A stretch of 64,000 nucleotides of DNA from Candidatus Nitronereus thalassa (GCF_032191465.1 NZ_JAQOUE010000002.1:310001-374000), one strand, 5' to 3'; positions 39,709 through 53,655 are shown, counted from the first letter of the stretch. The notes: a model not told the origin generated them from the sequence alone. Translations and numbers: made by a program.

Positions 39709-40710
39709 ATGAAGTCCTGGTCACGTCGGAACTTGCTCAAAACAGCAAGCAGTCTCGTGTTGGCATCGGCATTGCCGACTCCCAGCATTTCCCTGGCTGG
39801 GATGTGGAGTCAGTTGTTTGGGGGATTTGGGCGCGAGGTTTCCCCGATTACTCCCAATGACGAATTCTATATCACCTCGTACCGCTCCCCGCCGGATATA
39901 CGGCTTTACGATTGGGCATTGACGCTTAAAGGTTTGGTCAAATCACCCATGACTCTCACCTACTCAGAACTTCTTGCCCGACCAACAGTTTCAGAAATTG
40001 TCACGTTAGAATGTGTAGGAAATGCGGTTGGGGATGAGAGTATTGGCACCGCTGAATGGAACGGTGTCTCCTTGAAGACCTTGCTCAATGAAACAGGCAT
40101 TGAGTCCAATGCCTACGATGTCGTCCTTCGCGCCGCGGATGGATATTCCGATAGCATCCCCATTGAACGGGCGATGCATGGCGATGTCTTGGTCGCACAC
40201 CAAATGAATGGCGTGACACTCCCAACTGGACATGGTTATCCTGCCCGCCTCATTGTCCCTGGCGTTTACGGCATGAAGCATGTGCAGTGGCTGACGGAAA
40301 TCGAACTCGTTCCTCGAGATTATCAAGGCTATTACCAAAAGCAGGGTTGGACAGATGATGCGACTGTGCAGACGAAGACCTGGATCACCGATCCTCAAGA
40401 TTATGACGAATTACCGAGTAAGGATTTTCTGATAAAAGGGTTTGCCTTTGCGGGCATACGAGGCATTCGGTCCGTAGAAATCAGTCTTAACGGCGGGGAT
40501 ACCTGGCATCCCGCACATTTAAAGCCAGCACAGTCTCCTTATTCGTGGGTATTTTGGGATTATTTATGGAAGGAACCCAGGCCTGGAGTGTATGTCCTCC
40601 TTGCACGGGCAACCGATGGTACGGGTATGATGCAATCATTTCTTCATCAAAAGCCCTTTCCTAAGGGAGCCACCGGTATTCAAGAATTGTTTGTGAAAGT
40701 GTCTGAATAA
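39709..40710 (+). CDS. Tat-exported sulfite-oxidase-family molybdoenzyme
   Basis: 333 residues. Twin-arginine signal SRRNLLKTASSLVLASALPTP. The molybdopterin domain has TPNDEFYITSYRSPP, the molybdenum-ligand Cys in TLECVGNAVG, TAEWNGVSLKTLL, GYPARLIVPGVYGMKHVQWL and a C-terminal domain with VEISLNGGDTW. It resembles the stand-alone YedY/sulfite-oxidase-like branch and differs from the SoxC-like protein at 28954. A DUF547 lipoprotein gene starts 6 nt after the stop, so it heads the run of genes that leads into the MNIO cluster. Confidence 0.9.
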   Translation: MKSWSRRNLLKTASSLVLASALPTPSISLAGMWSQLFGGFGREVSPITPNDEFYITSYRSPPDIRLYDWALTLKGLVKSPMTLTYSELLARPTVSEIVTLECVGNAVGDESIGTAEWNGVSLKTLLNETGIESNAYDVVLRAADGYSDSIPIERAMHGDVLVAHQMNGVTLPTGHGYPARLIVPGVYGMKHVQWLTEIELVPRDYQGYYQKQGWTDDATVQTKTWITDPQDYDELPSKDFLIKGFAFAGIRGIRSVEISLNGGDTWHPAHLKPAQSPYSWVFWDYLWKEPRPGVYVLLARATDGTGMMQSFLHQKPFPKGATGIQELFVKVSE

Positions 40711-40716
40711 CGAGCA

Positions 40717-41514
40717 ATGAGTCCAATTCAAAAGAGAAACATCCTTACAATTTTCCTTTTTTTGTTTTTGGTTGCAGGCTGTTCATCGGTTCCTCAATCG
40801 TTCCACCCCCAACACCCTATAGCTCCTCAGGTTTTTACACACAATGCTTTTAACGATGTTCTCCAGAACCATGTTTCTGATGGAATTGTGAAATACCATG
40901 AGATCGCTCGTGACCCTCGATTTCATACCTACCTCGAGGAGCTCAATCGGGTTGATCCAAATGCCCTATCCACTCGAGAAGCCAGACTGGCCTTTTGGAT
41001 AAACGCCTACAACGCTTTTGCTATCAAGGGCATTCTAGACGGGTACTCGCCACGCACCAAATTTGGCCAATGGCGATATTTTATTTCTCGAAAATATCGA
41101 GTCGGCGGAGAAACTCTCAATCTCAATAATCTTGAGAAGAAAATTTTAATTCCCGAGTATCGCGAACCACGCATCCACTTTGCAATCGTGTGCGCTTCCC
41201 AATCATGTCCGAAACTTCGTTCCGAAGCCTTCACTGCTGAACATCTTGAAACTCAACTTAACGAGAATGCCCGTCAGTTCATCAACGATCCAACCAAGAA
41301 TCGGTTTGACCGCGAACACAGGGTGGCCTATCTCTCAAAAATTTTCGATTGGTTCACCGAGGATTTTGTCGCGCATTCCGGCTCTTTGACTGCATATGTA
41401 ACCCAATTTGTAGATGACCCGCTCCTCGCACAGGATCTACGTACTTCCATTTATACCGTAGAATTCCTCGATTATGATTGGACGTTGAACGGCATTCCTC
41501 CCTCTGATTCCTAG
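40717..41514 (+). CDS. DUF547 lipoprotein
   Basis: 265 residues. Lipobox LVAGCSS near residue 22. The DUF547 core is recognisable: FWINAYNAFAIKGILD, FISRKYRVGGETLNLNNLEKKIL, EPRIHFAIVCASQSCPKL and a C-terminal FLDYDWTLNG. The strongly conserved NAYN, HFAI and CxxxSCP elements suggest a catalytic pocket, but no activity is assigned to the family. It follows the molybdoenzyme by 6 nt and precedes the MNIO gene by about 70 nt. Confidence 0.88.
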   Translation: MSPIQKRNILTIFLFLFLVAGCSSVPQSFHPQHPIAPQVFTHNAFNDVLQNHVSDGIVKYHEIARDPRFHTYLEELNRVDPNALSTREARLAFWINAYNAFAIKGILDGYSPRTKFGQWRYFISRKYRVGGETLNLNNLEKKILIPEYREPRIHFAIVCASQSCPKLRSEAFTAEHLETQLNENARQFINDPTKNRFDREHRVAYLSKIFDWFTEDFVAHSGSLTAYVTQFVDDPLLAQDLRTSIYTVEFLDYDWTLNGIPPSDS

Positions 41515-41585
41515 CGACCCTGTAAAATTCCCGAAGTTGTAATATTTCTAACTTTTGTGCGACTACTTTCATAACCAGGCACGAT

Positions 41586-42449
41586 ATGGACACACCCAGG
41601 ACCAATCCTCAGGTTGGCGTCGGCCTTCGGCCCACCCATTATCCCTTTCTTCAAGAAAAGCCCGAAGTGCGCGTGCAATGGTTCGAGGCCATCAGCGAAA
41701 ACTATATGGACTCTGAAGGCCGTCCCATTGACATGCTGGAACTCGTTCGCGCGGATTACCCTGTGGCGCTTCACGGGGTTTCCCTTTCGATTGTCTCGGC
41801 GGAGGGAATAAGGCACGATTACCTTGCAAAACTAAAAATTTTGATCGATCGCATCAACCCCTTTATTGTTTCGGACCATCTCTGTTGGACCGGCCACCAG
41901 GCAGCCAACCTGCATGACTTGCTTCCCTTTCCGTTCACCGAAGATGCGCTTCGAGTTATTCAAGACAATGTTGATCATGTCCAAAATTATTTGAAACGAC
42001 ATATCTTGCTGGAAAATGTTTCCACCTATCTCTCGTTTCCTCAATCACAACATACAGAATGGGAGTTTCTCACCATTGTGTCCAACACCACGGGCTGCAA
42101 ATTATTGCTCGACGTGAATAATCTCTATGTAAACTCCCAAAACCATCACTTTGATCCGCTTAGGTTTGTGGATGCCATCCCCACCGACCTGATTGGACAA
42201 ATTCATTTGGCGGGATACACGGATATGGGAACCTACTTATTTGATACCCATTCCAACCCCGTATCCACCGAGGTTTGGAATTTATTTTCGCATGTCATTG
42301 CCCGTGCTCCGGATGTCCCGGTGCTCATTGAATGGGACGATGACATTCCGGAATTCCCTCGACTCGAAGAGGAAGCCCTCAAAGCCGCTGCCATTTGGGA
42401 AAATCACCATGGACCAGTTGACGCTCAAGCACTTTCAACAATTATTTAG
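41586..42449 (+). CDS. MNIO (DUF692/BufB-like) multinuclear iron enzyme
   Basis: 287 residues. The metal-binding pattern of the MbnB/BufB family is complete: His63 in ALHGVSLS, His98 in SDHLCW, Glu143 in LENVSTY, Asp176 in LLDVNNLYVN, His207 in IHLAGY, Asp220 and His222 in FDTHSNPVS, and Glu249 in IEWDDDIPEFP. Known relatives bind two or three iron ions and oxidise cysteine or other side chains in ribosomally made peptides, with a DUF2063 partner presenting the substrate. The DUF2063 gene overlaps the 3' end by 41 nt. No bufferin precursor (DUF2282) or other Cys-rich peptide is seen. Confidence 0.93.
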   Translation: MDTPRTNPQVGVGLRPTHYPFLQEKPEVRVQWFEAISENYMDSEGRPIDMLELVRADYPVALHGVSLSIVSAEGIRHDYLAKLKILIDRINPFIVSDHLCWTGHQAANLHDLLPFPFTEDALRVIQDNVDHVQNYLKRHILLENVSTYLSFPQSQHTEWEFLTIVSNTTGCKLLLDVNNLYVNSQNHHFDPLRFVDAIPTDLIGQIHLAGYTDMGTYLFDTHSNPVSTEVWNLFSHVIARAPDVPVLIEWDDDIPEFPRLEEEALKAAAIWENHHGPVDAQALSTII

Positions 42450-43212
42450 TCAGGCCACGCTCCCCAGCTTGGAACCTGAGCCCCCCCCAACGATCGGTGA
42501 TCTCATCGTGCCCGGAGGGGCACTGACCGCTTCCGACGCTCTCAACGTGTATGGCACTGGAGTGGTCGTCAGGCTCACCGAAGCTCTGGGTGAAACGTTT
42601 GAGGCGGTCTGGTGGGTTTGCGGAGACGATGACTTTTTTCAACTGGCAAAATACTACATTCAGACGCATCCCTCCTCGACCTACAATCTTTCACACTATG
42701 GAGAAACATTTTCTGAAATGCTGGATCGCTTGGGCCCATTTCCGGATTTGCCCTTTCTCGGTGACCTCGCTCGATATGAATGGCTGTTTAAATGCCTGTT
42801 TCACACCAAACAACACGACTCCGTGGCTCAAGATGCCCTGCAATCATTAACCGAAGAAGCCACTATTCGATTTCATTTTGGAAGCGCGGTCACACTCTTT
42901 ACCTCCCGTTATGCCATTTACGACCTATGGAAACTCCGCGGCGCAGAGCATGACGGCACTCCACCGACTGCATGGGATCGTCCGCAATCCCTAGTGCTGT
43001 ATAAAAAGGACAAACAAATTTTTATACGCGAAGTGGACGATGCAGAGTATGGTATTCTTTACGCCTTACATCACGGAGCTTCTCTGGACGCGGCGCTCGC
43101 CTCCGCAGGCGATGCACATCCCGAGTTTGATCAGCAGCGGGTTTCCGATCTGTTTCAAATGATGTTTCATACCGGAATCATTCACCACATCGATATTCAG
43201 CCATCACCCTGA
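42409..43212 (+). CDS. DUF2063 (BufC/HvfC-like) MNIO partner protein
   Basis: 267 residues from the ATG at 42409, which overlaps the MNIO gene by 41 nt. The DUF2063 domain runs over about 1-110 (LTLKHFQQLFSQATL, GALTASDALNVYGTGVVVRLTEALGETFEAVWWVCGDDDFFQLAKYYI) and is followed by a C-terminal half with LPFLGDLARYEWL and the winged-helix-like end typical of HvfC/BufC. In bufferin and methanobactin systems this partner holds the precursor. A run of eight C (42481-42488) at the Pro-Pro-Pro stretch could slip. Confidence 0.88.
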   Translation: MDQLTLKHFQQLFSQATLPSLEPEPPPTIGDLIVPGGALTASDALNVYGTGVVVRLTEALGETFEAVWWVCGDDDFFQLAKYYIQTHPSSTYNLSHYGETFSEMLDRLGPFPDLPFLGDLARYEWLFKCLFHTKQHDSVAQDALQSLTEEATIRFHFGSAVTLFTSRYAIYDLWKLRGAEHDGTPPTAWDRPQSLVLYKKDKQIFIREVDDAEYGILYALHHGASLDAALASAGDAHPEFDQQRVSDLFQMMFHTGIIHHIDIQPSP

Positions 43213-43230
43213 CACGCAACTGGTCCACCC

Positions 43231-44244
43231 ATGCACATGACCACCGACACCCTCCCTGTCCTTCGCAACCTCATCACAAGAAAACCACTGTTGGCTATTT
43301 TTGAAGTTTGTCTGCGTTGCAACTCCGCCTGTGGATATTGCGATCTTCCCCTAAATGTGGGTCGGTATGAAATGTCGCGAGAAGAGATTCGCAAAGCCTT
43401 TCAACACCTCTATGACCACGGCCTGCGGTTTTTGTTTATTCAAGGTGGGGAGCCTTTAGTGCGCCGTGATCTGCCGGAGATCTTAGAAGACCTATACGCG
43501 ATCGGGTTTCATCTCACGCTCATTACCAATGGAACGAAATTGACGAAGCCCCTCGTGGATCGCTTCCGGCCATTAAACGTGAATATTTCTGTCAGCCTCG
43601 ACACCCTCGACCAAGAACGCTATCACCACATTCGAGGCCGAGACCAATTGCCTGACGTCCTTCGAGGCATCGACTTGCTCCAGGACTATCCACATCCGAA
43701 ATTTCTCACATGCATCGTGAGTGAACCCAATCGACACGATGTCCTCGACGTCGCTCGATTTGCCAGAGCCCGCGGGTTCATCCCTGTGGTCGGTGCCTAT
43801 CACTGGAACGTCGAACGGTATGGGAAAGTGGATATGACCTTGCAGTATGAACGGGCCATGGCCAAACATGTTTTTGAGCAGCTTCTTGAATCAAATGTAG
43901 TGCCCGCCGGGTATTTTCGTCGATACCTTCATGATAATGTCAATTGGCTAAATGGCACTTCACTTGCCCCTTGCGATGCAGGCAAATACAGCATCGCCAT
44001 TGATGCCTCCGGTAATGTAGCACCATGCTTGGCCTTACACTCCGCTGGAAATCTCCGGGAGCAATCCCTGCCTGAGATCCTTGAGAAAATGGATGCCAAG
44101 GCGATCCGTGTCTGCTCCGACCAATCCTCGTGCAATATGATGTGCAGCCGGGTCATTGGATCCTTACTGCGCCATCCGATTGATGCCATACGCACTCCAC
44201 AAACCGTGGCTCCCATAAGGAACATGTATGCTCGTCAAGCCTAA
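43231..44244 (+). CDS. Radical SAM protein with SPASM-like C-terminus
   Basis: 337 residues. The cluster motif CNSACGYC gives Cys30, Cys34 and Cys37; FIQGGEPLVRRDLPEIL and LITNGTKLTKPLVDRF complete the SAM barrel. The C-terminal part has PCDAGKYSIAIDASGNVAPCLALHSAGNL and a cluster CSDQSSCNMMC, an arrangement of Cys like the auxiliary iron-sulfur sites of SPASM proteins (PqqE, AlbA). Such enzymes usually modify peptides. It starts 19 nt after the DUF2063 gene and overlaps the ferritin-like gene by 17 nt. Combination with an MNIO enzyme in one operon is the point of interest. Confidence 0.9.
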   Translation: MHMTTDTLPVLRNLITRKPLLAIFEVCLRCNSACGYCDLPLNVGRYEMSREEIRKAFQHLYDHGLRFLFIQGGEPLVRRDLPEILEDLYAIGFHLTLITNGTKLTKPLVDRFRPLNVNISVSLDTLDQERYHHIRGRDQLPDVLRGIDLLQDYPHPKFLTCIVSEPNRHDVLDVARFARARGFIPVVGAYHWNVERYGKVDMTLQYERAMAKHVFEQLLESNVVPAGYFRRYLHDNVNWLNGTSLAPCDAGKYSIAIDASGNVAPCLALHSAGNLREQSLPEILEKMDAKAIRVCSDQSSCNMMCSRVIGSLLRHPIDAIRTPQTVAPIRNMYARQA

Positions 44245-44905
44245 TGAACGTCTGCCGTTGGCGGCACTCCTGCAATTTCTGGAATTAGGCGAACGACTCG
44301 CCCATTCCTGCGCTACGACTCAAGCCGCACTCGCACCGACGAGCAAGATACGCGATTTCCTGAAAAGGCAGGCGAGACAGGAAGCCATGCACGCCACCAT
44401 CTTTCGCACGACACGAAAGTGGATCGCCCCACGACAGCCCGACGGCTCCAACACGCTCAAGCCATTCGAGGACTACCGTTCGTTACTGTGTGATTCGCTT
44501 GACCGCAAGCAATTTCTTGAATCCATTTTAGCCGAGCAGGTCATCCTGGAAAGTTTGGGAGAAGCCATCCTGCATAAAATAGAAATTGGCCTTCAAAAAC
44601 GGCATGCCCCCTTTCAACGACTGCGCCGCATGTTGCTAGCTCAGGAAGCCGCCCACCACGGCTTTGGGAACCACGTCCTCCAACGGGCCGTTGCGGACCA
44701 CGAGATCACCAAAGAACAACTGCAAGAACAGGCCATCCCCTATCTCTTGCTGTCCCAATCCATGATCATGGAATTACACGCGCTGTTCCAGGAGATTGAC
44801 GAAGACCCTCAAGAGTTTCTCGACCTTCAACAGCAACACCTTCCTCCATGGTTGGTCACCAGGAATACTAAACACGATGATTTACATAATCATTCCAGCC
44901 TATAA
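44228..44905 (+). CDS. Ferritin-like di-iron protein
   Basis: 225 residues, almost all helical. The metal pattern of a four-helix-bundle di-iron site is visible: Glu22 (LELGERLAH), Glu52-x-x-His55 (QEAMHATIF), Glu103 or Glu108 (ILAEQVILESLGEAIL) and Glu140-x-x-His143 (AQEAAHHGFG). That is the spacing of ferritin-like oxygenases and oxidases rather than storage ferritins. No known family name can be given. It overlaps the radical SAM gene by 17 nt and the glycosyltransferase by 29 nt, so all three are made together. Confidence 0.75.
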   Translation: MLVKPNERLPLAALLQFLELGERLAHSCATTQAALAPTSKIRDFLKRQARQEAMHATIFRTTRKWIAPRQPDGSNTLKPFEDYRSLLCDSLDRKQFLESILAEQVILESLGEAILHKIEIGLQKRHAPFQRLRRMLLAQEAAHHGFGNHVLQRAVADHEITKEQLQEQAIPYLLLSQSMIMELHALFQEIDEDPQEFLDLQQQHLPPWLVTRNTKHDDLHNHSSL

Positions 44906-45572
44906 CGAAGAGAACGCGCTTCCATTTACACTCTCTTCTTTACGGACAGCACACGGGTGTTGTGAAATTATCGTGGTCGATGGAGGGAGCACCGACCGTA
45001 CACCGCACATTGCGAAAGGCACACCCTCGGTCACCCTACTTACTGCTCCCAAAGGACGTGCCTCTCAAATGAATACCGGGGCAGCCTACGCCATTCAACA
45101 CAGCTATGACACTCAGAACTGGTTGCTGTTTCTCCACGCGGATACCACCCTCCCGGAGGGCAGCCTTCAACGTCTCCAGGCCATGCACACGGACGCCATG
45201 ATTCAAGCCGGAGGATTTTTTCACCAATTTTCCGGTGATGACTGGCGGCTTCGCTTCATTTCCTGGCTAGATAACTTTCGATGCACACATTCTCGCATCA
45301 TTTATGGAGACCAAGCGCTTTTTGTCCGATGCGGCCTATTTGAGCAACTCGGGGGCTTTCCCAATCAACCGATTCTCGAAGATGTGGCATTTTGCGAAAA
45401 GCTCATTCAACACACCCGCCCCATCCTTCTTACTCCCCCCGTTGTCACAGACTCTCGCAAATTCGTCCAAATGGGCATCTGGCGTAGCCTCGCCCGAGTG
45501 TTTCTCATCATCCTCAGCGTCGAGTTTCGGTTGCCTATGCTGGCACCAGCCTTTTTCAGAGATATTCGCTAG
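44877..45572 (+). CDS. Family 2 glycosyltransferase (TIGR04283-like, rSAM-associated)
   Basis: 231 residues from the ATG at 44877, which starts MIYIIIPAYNEE; the frame reaches back into the previous gene. The GT-A motifs are EIIVVDGGSTDRT, APKGRASQMNTGA, LLFLHADTTLP and the C-terminal GGFPNQPILEDVAFCEKL. VVDGGSTD plus GRASQMNTGA plus FLHADT are the hallmarks of the family called rSAM/selenodomain-associated transferase 2, which tends to sit next to radical SAM genes, as here. The C-terminal segment SLARVFLIILSVEF may contact the membrane. Acceptor unknown. Last gene of the cluster. Confidence 0.88.
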   Translation: MIYIIIPAYNEENALPFTLSSLRTAHGCCEIIVVDGGSTDRTPHIAKGTPSVTLLTAPKGRASQMNTGAAYAIQHSYDTQNWLLFLHADTTLPEGSLQRLQAMHTDAMIQAGGFFHQFSGDDWRLRFISWLDNFRCTHSRIIYGDQALFVRCGLFEQLGGFPNQPILEDVAFCEKLIQHTRPILLTPPVVTDSRKFVQMGIWRSLARVFLIILSVEFRLPMLAPAFFRDIR

Positions 45573-50241: not shown

Positions 50242-53200
50242 TCAAGAGATTCGTTCAAGAGCTATTCGCTTTAAGGCTCGGAGATCCAACTTTCCTGTCC
50301 CCAACACGGGGATTTTTTCTACTTTCAGGAACGCGTCTTTTCGCGGGATGAATAAGTTTGGCAGGCCGGTATCGGAGAGTTTGGTTAATACTTCAGGGAT
50401 TGCCGATTCTTCCAATGTATGGAGAACCACCAGTTGTTCGCCCTTCTTTTCATCGGGAATGGATGTCACGGCCAGGACTTGTGTTTCCGCATTGATGGCT
50501 TGATGCAGCGCTTCTTCCACTTTTCCATGCGGCACCATTTCTCCACCGATTTTGGCAAATCGTGAGAGGCGATCGGTTATCGTGATAAACCCGTCCTCAT
50601 CGAGAATGGCAATATCTCCCGTGATGTACCATCCTTCGTGTATCGCTTTAGCCGTAAGGTCGCGGCGCCCCAAATACCCGTGCATCACATTCGGCCCTTT
50701 TACCAGTAACATGCCAGCCGTCCCTACCGGCAGAGGCTCAAACGAATCCGGATCAACGATGCGCACCGAGACCCCCGGCAAAGCGCGACCGACGGTCCCA
50801 CGCCTGGATGCCGATTGGTAGAATCCTGCCGCACGGAAGTCTGGACAATTCACCGCGATGACAGGGGCACATTCCGTGACGCCATACCCTTCAATAGGAC
50901 GAATGCCAAACTTTTCTTCGAAGGCTTGGGCGAGTCGCTCGGACAGCTTTTCGGCACCGGTCAATATAATACGAACCGACCCAAACTGGTCTGGTGTGCA
51001 ACGCCGTAAATAAAGCTGCAAGAAGGTCGGCGTGGCAATCAGAATCGTGACGCGCTGCTTATGAATCAATTCGCCGATGGCTCCAGCGTCTAATGGCGTA
51101 GGATGATACACCACGCCCACCCCATGATTGACCGCCAGCCAAATCGTGGCCAAATACCCGAACGAGTGAAAGAACGGCAAAATACCCAATAGCCGATCAT
51201 TCGGCCCCAGGTGAAACACCTGCGCCACACCCTCAACATTCGAATCAACATTATAATGACTAAGCATCACCCCCTTGGGCTCACCAGTACTTCCGCTGCT
51301 GAAAATAATCGTCGCCAGATCATCAATCTGTGGACGGATGGTCACACCCGCCGCTCGCTCCAACATTGAAATTGGGGCAAAGATCGCAAGTAACAATGCC
51401 GTGATTCGTTCTCCCGTGCCAATAGTTTTTCGTACTTCATCGATCCAAATGATCTTGATACCTTCTGGCAACTCAAGACCGGCTTTTTCGATAAACATCT
51501 GACTCGTGACGATGGTTTCCAACTGTGCTTGTTTCGCGGCTGCCTCCATTCCACTTTTTCCTGCAGTGTAATTCAGATTCACCGCAGTGCGGCCAGACAA
51601 AGTCGCGGCTAAATTCACCAGCACCCCACCTACGCTAGGAGGAAGCAAAATTCCCACGTTATGCTGGTGCTCCCAGAGCGGACGAAAGGCTCTGGCTAAC
51701 GCAATGGCGCCAACGAGGGATTCCAAGCATGAGACCTTTGGCCGAGTCAGGTCGGCAAATGCAAAGCGAAACGGATGACGCCGCACGGCTCGGACAAACG
51801 TATGATGCAATGGTGGCCGATTCGGCTTACGATAGGCCCAGGCCTGCTCCCCCAATTCTTGGACCGCATTTCGTACTTCTGCGGATGTCACCGTGGCTGG
51901 TAAGGGGACCCCGTACGAGATCGTCACTGGATAAGGAATCTGTTCAGGCCATTTTGTCAAAAACTTTCCACCGATAAAACTGAAAATGCTGCCCCACACA
52001 CGATCGAGATGCACGGGAACCACCGGAGCCTCACGGCCTTTGAGAATCCGTTCAAACCCTTGCTGAAATGGGAGGAGGCTACCTGTTCGTGTAATTTGTC
52101 CTTCAGGAAAAATACACACCAGCTCACCATCATCTAACCGACGTCCAGCATCCCGAAGTGCGGTTAAAATCTCCTTCGGCGACCCTTTAGAAGAGATGGG
52201 AATGGCCCCCATGATTTTCGCCAGTCGATGAAACAACGGATGCTCATAATATTGACGATCGACCACAAATCGAATGGGCCGATCCACGCTTGCCAAGAGG
52301 AGTAATCCATCTACAAACGACACATGGTTAGGCACGAGCAAGGCCCCGCCACGATCCGGAACATGATCGCGTCCAATGATATGGAGACGATACAGGGTGT
52401 GCGTCACCAGGAATAACACCATACGAATAAACGTTTCCGGCATAATCCTCACGGCCCACATTGTTAATCCGGCGGTCGCCATTCCGGCGGCCAGAATAAT
52501 ACTACTGGCACTCAACCCAAGAAAGGCCAAGAACCCGGTTCCCAAAGACCCGGCAAGCACACCAGCAAAGACGAACACATTATTAAAGGCAATAACCGCC
52601 CCACGCCGATCCTCAGGCGCACGCCACTGAATCAACGAATTAATGGGCACCACGATAAACCCACTCGACAACCCTAACCAGGCCATCCCGATCAACGTTC
52701 CGACAACGTCGGGCCTGAGGGCGCCAATCACAAACAAACCGACTGTTAATCCAATGGCGCCAAGGGGAATATGTCCCACCTCAACTTTGGAATGTGATAA
52801 TTTCCCGGCCAGCACAGATCCAAGACCCACGCCGATTCCAAATGTGGCTAATGGCAATCCTGCCCATGAATCCGTCAATCCCAACACCGCTTTGCTATAC
52901 ACCAAGATATCTTGCCCCACCAAACTGGCCACCATCCAATATCCAATATTTCCCATTACACCTAAACGAAGCACACGATCCGCTTGCACAGCATCCCATG
53001 CTCCTTGCAAAGTTTCCCGCAACCCTCCTTCTGCACGTGCACGCGGTACCGAGGGAATCGACAGGGAATACCTCAATCCGATGATAGAAAATACCAAGAG
53101 GACTCCTCCACCTAACCATGGTGAGGCACCCGATACTTGCAAAAACATTCCACCCAGTGCCGTTCCACCAATAATTGCGAGAAAGGTCCAGAGCTCTAAT

Positions 53201-53655
53201 TGACCGTTGCCAGCAGCTAATCGTTCATGAGGAAGCAACTCCGGCAAGATGCCATATTTGGCCGGGCTAAATAGCGCACTTTGGACCGCCATTGCGCCTA
53301 AAACAATTAAGGGCAAGAGCCCACCCTCCGGATTCATAAACAATGCCACCGTGCCTACACCCATCAATCCCACTTCGACGACTTTCATAATCACGATGAC
53401 AGAACGCTTACTGAATCGATCTGAAAAAACTCCCGAAAAAATCGAGACAACCACAAGCGGAAAAGTGAACACCACAAAGGTGATCGTCGTCTGTGCTTGA
53501 GCCGCAGCCTCATACTCCAACCCACTTCCCATCTGGGACGCCAACTGTTTGATGGCTAACAACGCCACCATCAGTTTCCAGGCATTGTCATTGAATGCCC
53601 CAAAGAATTGAGCGATGAGAAGTCCTCGGATGGGGTTAGGTGAAGACCTGTTCAT
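50242..53655 (-). CDS. LplT-PlsC-Aas fusion: lysophospholipid transport and acylation
   Basis: 1137 residues. Residues about 1-410 form an MFS-type transporter like LplT (LLIAQFFGAFNDNAWKL, FSGVFSDRFSKR). Then comes a PlsC-type acyltransferase (NHVSFVDG with the HX4D motif near 440; FPEGQITRTG), and from about 640 an AMP-binding acyl-ACP/CoA synthetase (IIFSSGSTGEPKG, GYGVTECAPVIAVN, YITGDIAILDEDGF). Together these import lysophospholipid across the inner membrane and re-acylate it, the job split in E. coli between LplT and Aas. Fusion in one chain is known in other bacteria. It stands alone and converges on the DUF2007 gene. Confidence 0.92.
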   Translation of the reverse strand: MNRSSPNPIRGLLIAQFFGAFNDNAWKLMVALLAIKQLASQMGSGLEYEAAAQAQTTITFVVFTFPLVVVSIFSGVFSDRFSKRSVIVIMKVVEVGLMGVGTVALFMNPEGGLLPLIVLGAMAVQSALFSPAKYGILPELLPHERLAAGNGQLELWTFLAIIGGTALGGMFLQVSGASPWLGGGVLLVFSIIGLRYSLSIPSVPRARAEGGLRETLQGAWDAVQADRVLRLGVMGNIGYWMVASLVGQDILVYSKAVLGLTDSWAGLPLATFGIGVGLGSVLAGKLSHSKVEVGHIPLGAIGLTVGLFVIGALRPDVVGTLIGMAWLGLSSGFIVVPINSLIQWRAPEDRRGAVIAFNNVFVFAGVLAGSLGTGFLAFLGLSASSIILAAGMATAGLTMWAVRIMPETFIRMVLFLVTHTLYRLHIIGRDHVPDRGGALLVPNHVSFVDGLLLLASVDRPIRFVVDRQYYEHPLFHRLAKIMGAIPISSKGSPKEILTALRDAGRRLDDGELVCIFPEGQITRTGSLLPFQQGFERILKGREAPVVPVHLDRVWGSIFSFIGGKFLTKWPEQIPYPVTISYGVPLPATVTSAEVRNAVQELGEQAWAYRKPNRPPLHHTFVRAVRRHPFRFAFADLTRPKVSCLESLVGAIALARAFRPLWEHQHNVGILLPPSVGGVLVNLAATLSGRTAVNLNYTAGKSGMEAAAKQAQLETIVTSQMFIEKAGLELPEGIKIIWIDEVRKTIGTGERITALLLAIFAPISMLERAAGVTIRPQIDDLATIIFSSGSTGEPKGVMLSHYNVDSNVEGVAQVFHLGPNDRLLGILPFFHSFGYLATIWLAVNHGVGVVYHPTPLDAGAIGELIHKQRVTILIATPTFLQLYLRRCTPDQFGSVRIILTGAEKLSERLAQAFEEKFGIRPIEGYGVTECAPVIAVNCPDFRAAGFYQSASRRGTVGRALPGVSVRIVDPDSFEPLPVGTAGMLLVKGPNVMHGYLGRRDLTAKAIHEGWYITGDIAILDEDGFITITDRLSRFAKIGGEMVPHGKVEEALHQAINAETQVLAVTSIPDEKKGEQLVVLHTLEESAIPEVLTKLSDTGLPNLFIPRKDAFLKVEKIPVLGTGKLDLRALKRIALERIS

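Follow-up and report, generated by a model that had tools for sequence, protein, structure and literature searches.

A putative bufferin maturation gene pair embedded in a conserved Nitrospirales module encoding radical SAM, di-iron and glycosyltransferase proteins

Introduction

For the bufferins, oxidation of cysteine residues by an MNIO enzyme acting with a partner protein, export of the product and binding of metal are established in the cited literature (PMC12452194). The gene order bufA-bufB-bufC has been called strictly conserved, six cysteines are reported for 90% of Buf2 precursors, and additional conserved genes are found in bufferin clusters only in extremely low proportions; the suggestion has also been made that MNIOs encoded at another locus could act on unlinked precursors (PMC12452194). 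The words 'rSAM', 'ferritin', 'glycosyl' and 'Nitrospir' do not occur in the main text of that paper. The locus described here combines genes of the bufferin-2 kind with a radical SAM enzyme (rSAM), a ferritin-like di-iron protein and a glycosyltransferase (GT), and represents a new way of arranging components that are in part known, rather than one new five-gene peptide pathway.

Results and discussion

Layout of the locus

The window, that is the whole stretch of 64,000 nt of Candidatus Nitronereus thalassa DNA that was analysed, contains the following genes, with positions counted from its first nucleotide:

39709..40710, + strand: SUOX-family molybdoenzyme (PF00174, 157 bits; Tat-type N-terminus)
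40717..41514, + strand: DUF547 lipoprotein (PF04784, 107.7 bits; lipobox LVAGC, Cys22), part of the core of the older module
41586..42449, + strand: bufB, putative MNIO bufferin maturase (PF05114, 333 bits; NF050167, 345 bits)
42409..43212, + strand: bufC, DUF2063 partner protein (PF09836, 57.2 bits)
43231..44244, + strand: radical SAM/SPASM enzyme (Radical_SAM, 87 bits; SPASM, 38 bits)
44228..44905, + strand: ferritin-like di-iron protein with predicted ADO-like fold (invariant metal-ligand-type residues; structure model)
44877..45572, + strand: GT2 glycosyltransferase (TIGR04283, 203.5 bits, cut-off 182)

The SUOX gene is followed after 6 nt by the DUF547 gene, and this after 71 nt by bufB; bufB and bufC overlap by 41 nt, a gap of 18 nt separates bufC from the rSAM gene, and the rSAM/di-iron and di-iron/GT overlaps are of 17 nt and 29 nt, respectively. 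An earlier note on this DNA had given the same gene positions, overlaps and 6-nt spacing, with a gap of 19 nt where 18 nt is measured, and its assignments of the MNIO, DUF2063, SPASM rSAM, TIGR04283, molybdoenzyme and DUF547 proteins are confirmed by Pfam and NCBIfam. Rfam identified no RNA families between 37.5 and 47 kb of the window, and a scan of the locus for promoters and terminators gave predicted counts at the level of shuffled sequence, as expected by chance. The arrangement itself is not due to chance: some of its parts keep the same neighbours across dozens of genomes.

The bufBC pair and its distant precursors

The window MNIO exceeds the threshold of the NCBI BufB equivalog NF050167 (345 vs 310 bits), and a profile search of the host genome found it to be the only match to PF05114. 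Alignment of 10 BufB-type MNIOs showed H63, H98, E143, N144, D176 and N178 to be invariant, and likewise N179, N183, H207, D220, H222 and E249. The bufC orthologues in the buf loci of the host's family are 45-79% identical. As in bufferin-2 clusters (bufA2-bufB-bufC; NF050167, NF050166; PMC12452194), the gene for the DUF2063 partner directly follows bufB; and the BufB score, the partner gene and the presence of BufA2 in the genome support the view, taken already in the earlier note, that the two proteins are a RiPP maturation pair, probably of the bufferin kind.

Unlike bufferin-2 clusters, the window locus contains no peptide precursor, an absence that the earlier note missed, and its bufBC genes sit within an operon of rSAM, di-iron, GT and DUF547 genes. 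A genome-wide search for BufA2 yielded only two genes, in tandem at C2:569792-570394, 218 kb from bufBC, whose products score 63.0 and 62.3 bits (NF050166, cut-off 60). They resemble known bufferin-2 precursors in their signal peptides of Sec or lipoprotein type, as read by eye, and in their six conserved cysteines, which are invariant across 12 BufA2 sequences. That a precursor lies hidden in the window was considered, and is ruled out by the genome search and by the shortness (71 nt) of the gap between the DUF547 and MNIO genes. In seven relatives (L035, L037-L042) a gene for a small Cys-rich protein does lie directly 5' of the MNIO gene, as in bufferin-2 clusters, and in six of these it sits between the DUF547 and MNIO genes; the precursor of a representative relative passes the BufA2 cut-off (70.6 vs 60 bits). 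The order bufA-bufB-bufC at a single locus, not found in the window, is thus present in these seven and in L103. Across the 74 genomes searched BufA2 was found in 10, and among 18 genomes tested from the host's family 10 have both a BufB-type MNIO and BufA2 and eight have neither, although one of the eight (G026) is incomplete and has a DUF2063 gene at a contig edge.

Given a single MNIO and two precursors, we infer that host BufA2 is modified in trans by BufBC. Because the one bufferin maturase and the two precursors are encoded at separate loci, such maturation is open to test here without competing MNIOs, which makes this genome a clean candidate for a process, itself still presumptive, that could previously only be suggested for unlinked precursors (PMC12452194).

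An older module in Nitrospirales

Neighbourhoods of the di-iron gene were collected from 31 further loci and all their proteins mapped, giving 32 loci with the window included. The GT gene adjoins the di-iron gene in 32/32, the DUF547 gene is present in 29/32 (the three others are either cut by a contig end or from G027) and the rSAM gene in 21/32; an MNIO gene is seen in 10/32, and a SUOX gene in 8/32. The SUOX gene is therefore a frequent but optional upstream neighbour. Its homologues in the seven further loci are 53-60% identical, and the window enzyme falls below the NCBIfam cut-offs for SorA, SoxC, SorT and MsrP. In the DUF547 lipoprotein Cys22 is invariant across 13 orthologues; the model of this protein (pLDDT 90.7) found no fold match in the PDB, and the lack of a recognisable fold counts against the composite origin proposed below.

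The rSAM carries a CNSACGYC motif and five invariant C-terminal cysteines, and reaches the cut-off of none of the NCBIfam MoaA/PqqE/SPASM equivalogs, the best being TIGR02666 with 78.9 vs 284 bits. Orthologues are present in 57/74 di-iron genomes and all of them adjoin the di-iron gene, with the exception of one match truncated at a contig edge, so that the rSAM is an optional member of the module. The gene order of the sister family, which we take as the ancestral one, is VTT-FAD-dependent disulphide reductase-DUF3047-(SUOX)-(rSAM)-DUF547-di-iron-GT-CCA-transferase, and the position 5' of the CCA-transferase gene is conserved. Judged from this distribution, DUF547, rSAM, di-iron protein and GT appear to constitute a separate, older and vertically inherited Nitrospirales module which, though conserved, has apparently not been described.

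The di-iron protein

Searches of the di-iron protein against Pfam and NCBIfam returned no family match, against PDB sequences no meaningful match, and against plasmids no match. Across 13 orthologues E22, E52xxH55, E103/E108 and E140xxH143 are invariant. An AlphaFold model (mc3627fccaed9; pLDDT 84.6) lies closest to the aldehyde-deformylating oxygenases (ADO; Foldseek TM 0.78, VIA-align Z 24), followed by the R2lox proteins (Z 20-21). The earlier designation as a di-iron protein, which has no support from Pfam, holds by virtue of these invariant ligand-type residues and the ADO-like model, and the protein would represent a new ferritin-like family with an ADO-like predicted fold. With cyanobacterial ADO it has in common this fold, which matches along some 205 residues, and the ExxH/E pattern seen in ferritin-like di-iron enzymes; it differs in being only about 15-20% identical, with R2lox folds also near, and in that no acyl-ACP reductase partner is seen in the window locus. 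The predicted fold does not of itself indicate a fatty-aldehyde deformylating function.

The glycosyltransferase

The host genome houses a second TIGR04283 gene (C1:2884922, at ~2885 kb), 39% identical to the window GT, which on reading by eye adjoins a TIGR04282-like gene. In tests of 22 genomes the subfamily of this second gene was present in 22/22, and that of the window GT was confined to genomes carrying the di-iron gene; the window GT is by this criterion a TIGR04283 paralogue specific to the di-iron module. ArsS, which is above cut-off in 33/35 genomes tested, is encoded in the host at C1:1955317, in an ArsM-ArsS pair (C1:1954-1956 kb) with no GT gene nearby. The earlier note had linked the GT to the rSAM on the ground that TIGR04283 transferases tend to sit beside radical SAM genes. 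That argument concerns a different rSAM, namely ArsS, and since ArsS lies apart from the GT, which belongs to a module-specific subfamily, it has no bearing on the window rSAM. The locus is like TIGR04283/TIGR04282-ArsS neighbourhoods in that its GT passes the TIGR04283 cut-off, in that DUF547, rSAM and VTT/FAD-oxidoreductase genes lie nearby on a Burkholderia plasmid, and in that TIGR04283 and ArsS genes occur beside DUF547 in Hymenobacter; it is unlike them in lacking ArsS, in having an rSAM of another family and a distinct GT paralogue, and in the addition of the ADO-like di-iron protein.

Separability and repeated linkage

In most of the Nitrospirales genomes examined that carry the module, the MNIO is absent from the locus and BufA2 from the genome; the module core lacks an MNIO at L036, L043 and L079-L096. 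Conversely, G018 (97% complete) and G027 (99% complete) both have BufA2, BufB and BufC, and the rSAM was not found anywhere in either genome. From the occurrence of the rSAM without bufferin and of bufferin without the rSAM, it follows that rSAM, di-iron protein and GT need no bufferin, and bufferin no rSAM. In G018, bufABC and the di-iron module are even on different contigs, with bufABC adjoining the VTT-FAD reductase-DUF3047 genes. The proposal of the earlier note, that the five genes from bufB to the GT form one tailoring pathway, is unsupported because the module and BufA2/BufB/BufC each occur apart. The co-occurrence across genomes that it had looked to holds for rSAM, di-iron protein and GT, which travel together, but not for the rSAM with the MNIO or precursor (rSAM in 57/74, BufA2 in 10/74); similarly, of the scattering that it took as telling against a pathway, bufBC does prove separable and the rSAM/di-iron/GT set does not.

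Within the host's family, BufB lies inside the module in 9/10 BufB genomes, which are not independent of one another, and it does so in several gene orders: DUF547-bufABC-rSAM-diFe-GT; rSAM-MTase-DUF547-bufABC-diFe-GT; bufABC-MTase-(secreted protein)-DUF547-rSAM-diFe-GT; bufBC-diFe-GT (G027); and the order of the window (diFe, di-iron gene). In a tree the family's BufB sequences group together, and on the di-iron tree 3-4 changes of buf/no-buf label are required, a count that is slightly off because L034 was labelled 'no_buf' despite a DUF2063 gene at its contig edge; taken together, these results would allow a single insertion with later losses. The window retains the SUOX-DUF547-...-rSAM-di-iron-GT-CCA part of the neighbourhood, with bufBC inserted after DUF547, and the VTT-FAD reductase-DUF3047 part is found at C2:566-570 kb, directly 5' of the two bufA2 genes, so that the bufferin genes of the host are split across a neighbourhood which is contiguous in relatives. 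In the sister family, BufB-type MNIOs are present in 15 sampled genomes and near the module in G154 only, where an operon of DUF2282-type bufA, bufB, bufC and DoxX lies between the DUF3047/FAD reductase genes and the module.

Related combinations are found further afield. A plasmid of Burkholderia glumae carries, within about 20 kb, a DUF2282-DUF692-DUF2063-DoxX operon, a VTT/FAD oxidoreductase, TIGR04282, TIGR04283, ArsS, an rSAM and DUF547; we take this to be a gene neighbourhood that recurs in connection with metal or redox stress. The rSAMs of Burkholderia and Roseomonas were considered as orthologues of the window rSAM and rejected, the similarity being at superfamily level only. In a Pseudoalteromonas locus, VTT/FAD and DUF547 genes lie 5' of genes for a CDP-alcohol phosphatidyltransferase and a sterol desaturase. 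The association of bufBC with the module is probably not accidental, and the repeated linkage of bufferins with DUF547, TIGR04283 and VTT-FAD genes points to a shared function in metal or redox stress.

Origin and possible roles of the locus

The explanation that we consider probable is that the locus is composite, with bufBC, whose precursors are encoded in trans, placed into an older, MNIO-independent module and kept there for co-expression. The sequences themselves show which genes are present, the families to which they belong, that the two modules are separable and where the precursors are encoded. In the scheme proposed, with its putative chemistry and substrates for both modules, its candidate metal copper and its presumed co-regulation, BufB, with BufC as partner, would oxidatively modify the cysteines of BufA2-type precursors in the cytoplasm in an iron-dependent reaction; the precursors would be exported by means of their Sec or lipoprotein signal peptides, and the products, once in the periplasm, would bind copper or metals like it. 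In the older module, the rSAM and di-iron enzymes may modify the aglycone of a small-molecule or lipid-linked glycoconjugate, to which the GT would add a sugar, and the DUF547 lipoprotein would act in the periplasm. For this module, a pathway to a small molecule or lipid glycoconjugate that serves under metal or redox stress appears the most likely role, although the proposal has low specificity; the idea of a lipid derives from the Pseudoalteromonas locus, the VTT membrane protein and the resemblance of the di-iron protein to ADO in predicted fold. In the host's family the bufBC genes would have entered the module locus and stayed there while it was rearranged several times, the simplest reason being joint expression when metal or redox stress arises.

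Peptides are common substrates of SPASM rSAM enzymes, and this, with the tight gene overlaps in the window and the location of bufBC inside the module in nearly all BufB genomes of the host's family, in several orders, would fit a pathway in which a single ribosomal peptide, here BufA2, is processed successively by MNIO, rSAM, di-iron protein and GT to give an oxidised, cross-linked and glycosylated metallophore. Against this, the search for BufA2 was negative in over 60 of 74 genomes, almost all of them with the di-iron module; G018 and G027 possess BufA2 and BufB without the rSAM, with bufABC and module on separate contigs in G018; and the compact loci of the sister family show no sign of a further precursor ORF, so that a single pathway appears quite unlikely. 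Nor is there much to commend the alternative that DUF547, rSAM, di-iron protein and GT further process the ArsM-ArsS product to an arsenosugar or arsenolipid, the bufferins being another metal-stress system that shares the locus. The GT does pass the cut-off of a family labelled 'arsenosugar biosynthesis', Burkholderia and Hymenobacter plasmids place DUF547 near TIGR04283 and ArsS, ArsS is above cut-off in almost all genomes tested, and both the ADO-like fold and the DUF547-CDP-alcohol phosphatidyltransferase neighbourhood of Pseudoalteromonas hint at lipids; but the label is an annotation, the host ArsM-ArsS genes lie elsewhere with no GT gene nearby, the separate canonical TIGR04283-TIGR04282 pair is the universal one, and the rSAMs of Burkholderia and the window are not orthologues, all of which renders this route distinctly improbable.

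It is also unlikely that bufBC entered the operon as a chance event and persisted as a mere passenger, its co-location having no functional meaning. The single BufB group of the family is compatible with one insertion and later losses, and bufABC can stand alone, as in G018. However, the co-location has outlasted several rearrangements; the bufferin genes of G018 and the bufA2 genes of the host and G027 adjoin VTT-FAD reductase-DUF3047, the flank of the module in the sister family; a Buf1 operon was independently inserted in this same neighbourhood in G154; and genes of these kinds are also brought together on the Burkholderia plasmid.

With regard to the composite origin that we favour, it is observed that the co-location in 9/10 genomes is tighter than co-regulation alone needs, which counts against it. 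There is a slim chance that, in lineages where bufBC is embedded in the module, BufA2 has become a further substrate of the rSAM, the ADO-like di-iron enzyme and the GT. If so, the tailoring of the BufA2 metallophore would involve a sugar transferase and iron enzymes of three different kinds.

Gene content of the module loci

The closest relative, G027 (loci L078/L002), retains bufBC together with the genes for the di-iron protein and the glycosyltransferase; the rSAM gene is absent from its whole genome and DUF547 is absent at the locus. It offers a naturally occurring series of deletions in the module. Additional genes accompany the module elsewhere: in some loci a class I methyltransferase gene lies amid the buf, DUF547 and rSAM genes, as does a gene for a secreted protein (about 320 aa) for which Pfam gave no match, and in several sister-family loci a small secreted protein is encoded opposite to the module, the L085 copy likewise having no match in Pfam.

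L035:6214-8192 and L042:10601-12639, class I methyltransferase and secreted protein of about 320 aa
L085:7459-7917, L094:8218-8670 and L104:6093-6503, strand opposite to the module, small secreted protein

One contig, JADFRB010000016.1 (L003 and L034), is labelled Nitrospinota and is apparently identical to a contig of G026, a member of the window's own genus; a mislabelled MAG is likely.

MNIO proteins and neighbouring genes

In several sister-family genomes (G283, G238 and G172; L099, L100, L101 and L105) ArsS lies 11-21 kb from a BufB-type MNIO, an arrangement found twice in G283, and this proximity suggests a metal-resistance island bearing both. An open frame of about 500 aa in most sampled Nitrospirales genomes encodes a second, distant protein that is positive for PF05114; this protein is absent from the window's genome and may represent an undescribed MNIO-like family.

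G190:C1:388203-388961, distant PF05114-positive protein (example)

About 0.8 kb past the tandem bufA2 genes of the window's genome lie a sigma-factor gene and an anti-sigma-like gene. Sigma genes have been reported with Buf1 clusters and not with Buf2 clusters (PMC12452194).

L047:8195-9162 (about 571.2-572.2 kb on contig C2 of G000), strand opposite to bufA2, sigma-70-family factor and zf-HC2 anti-sigma-like gene

Within the window itself, positions 50242-53655 encode a 1137-aa protein that, from its sequence judged by eye, resembles an MFS-type transporter fused to an acyltransferase and an AMP-forming acyl ligase.
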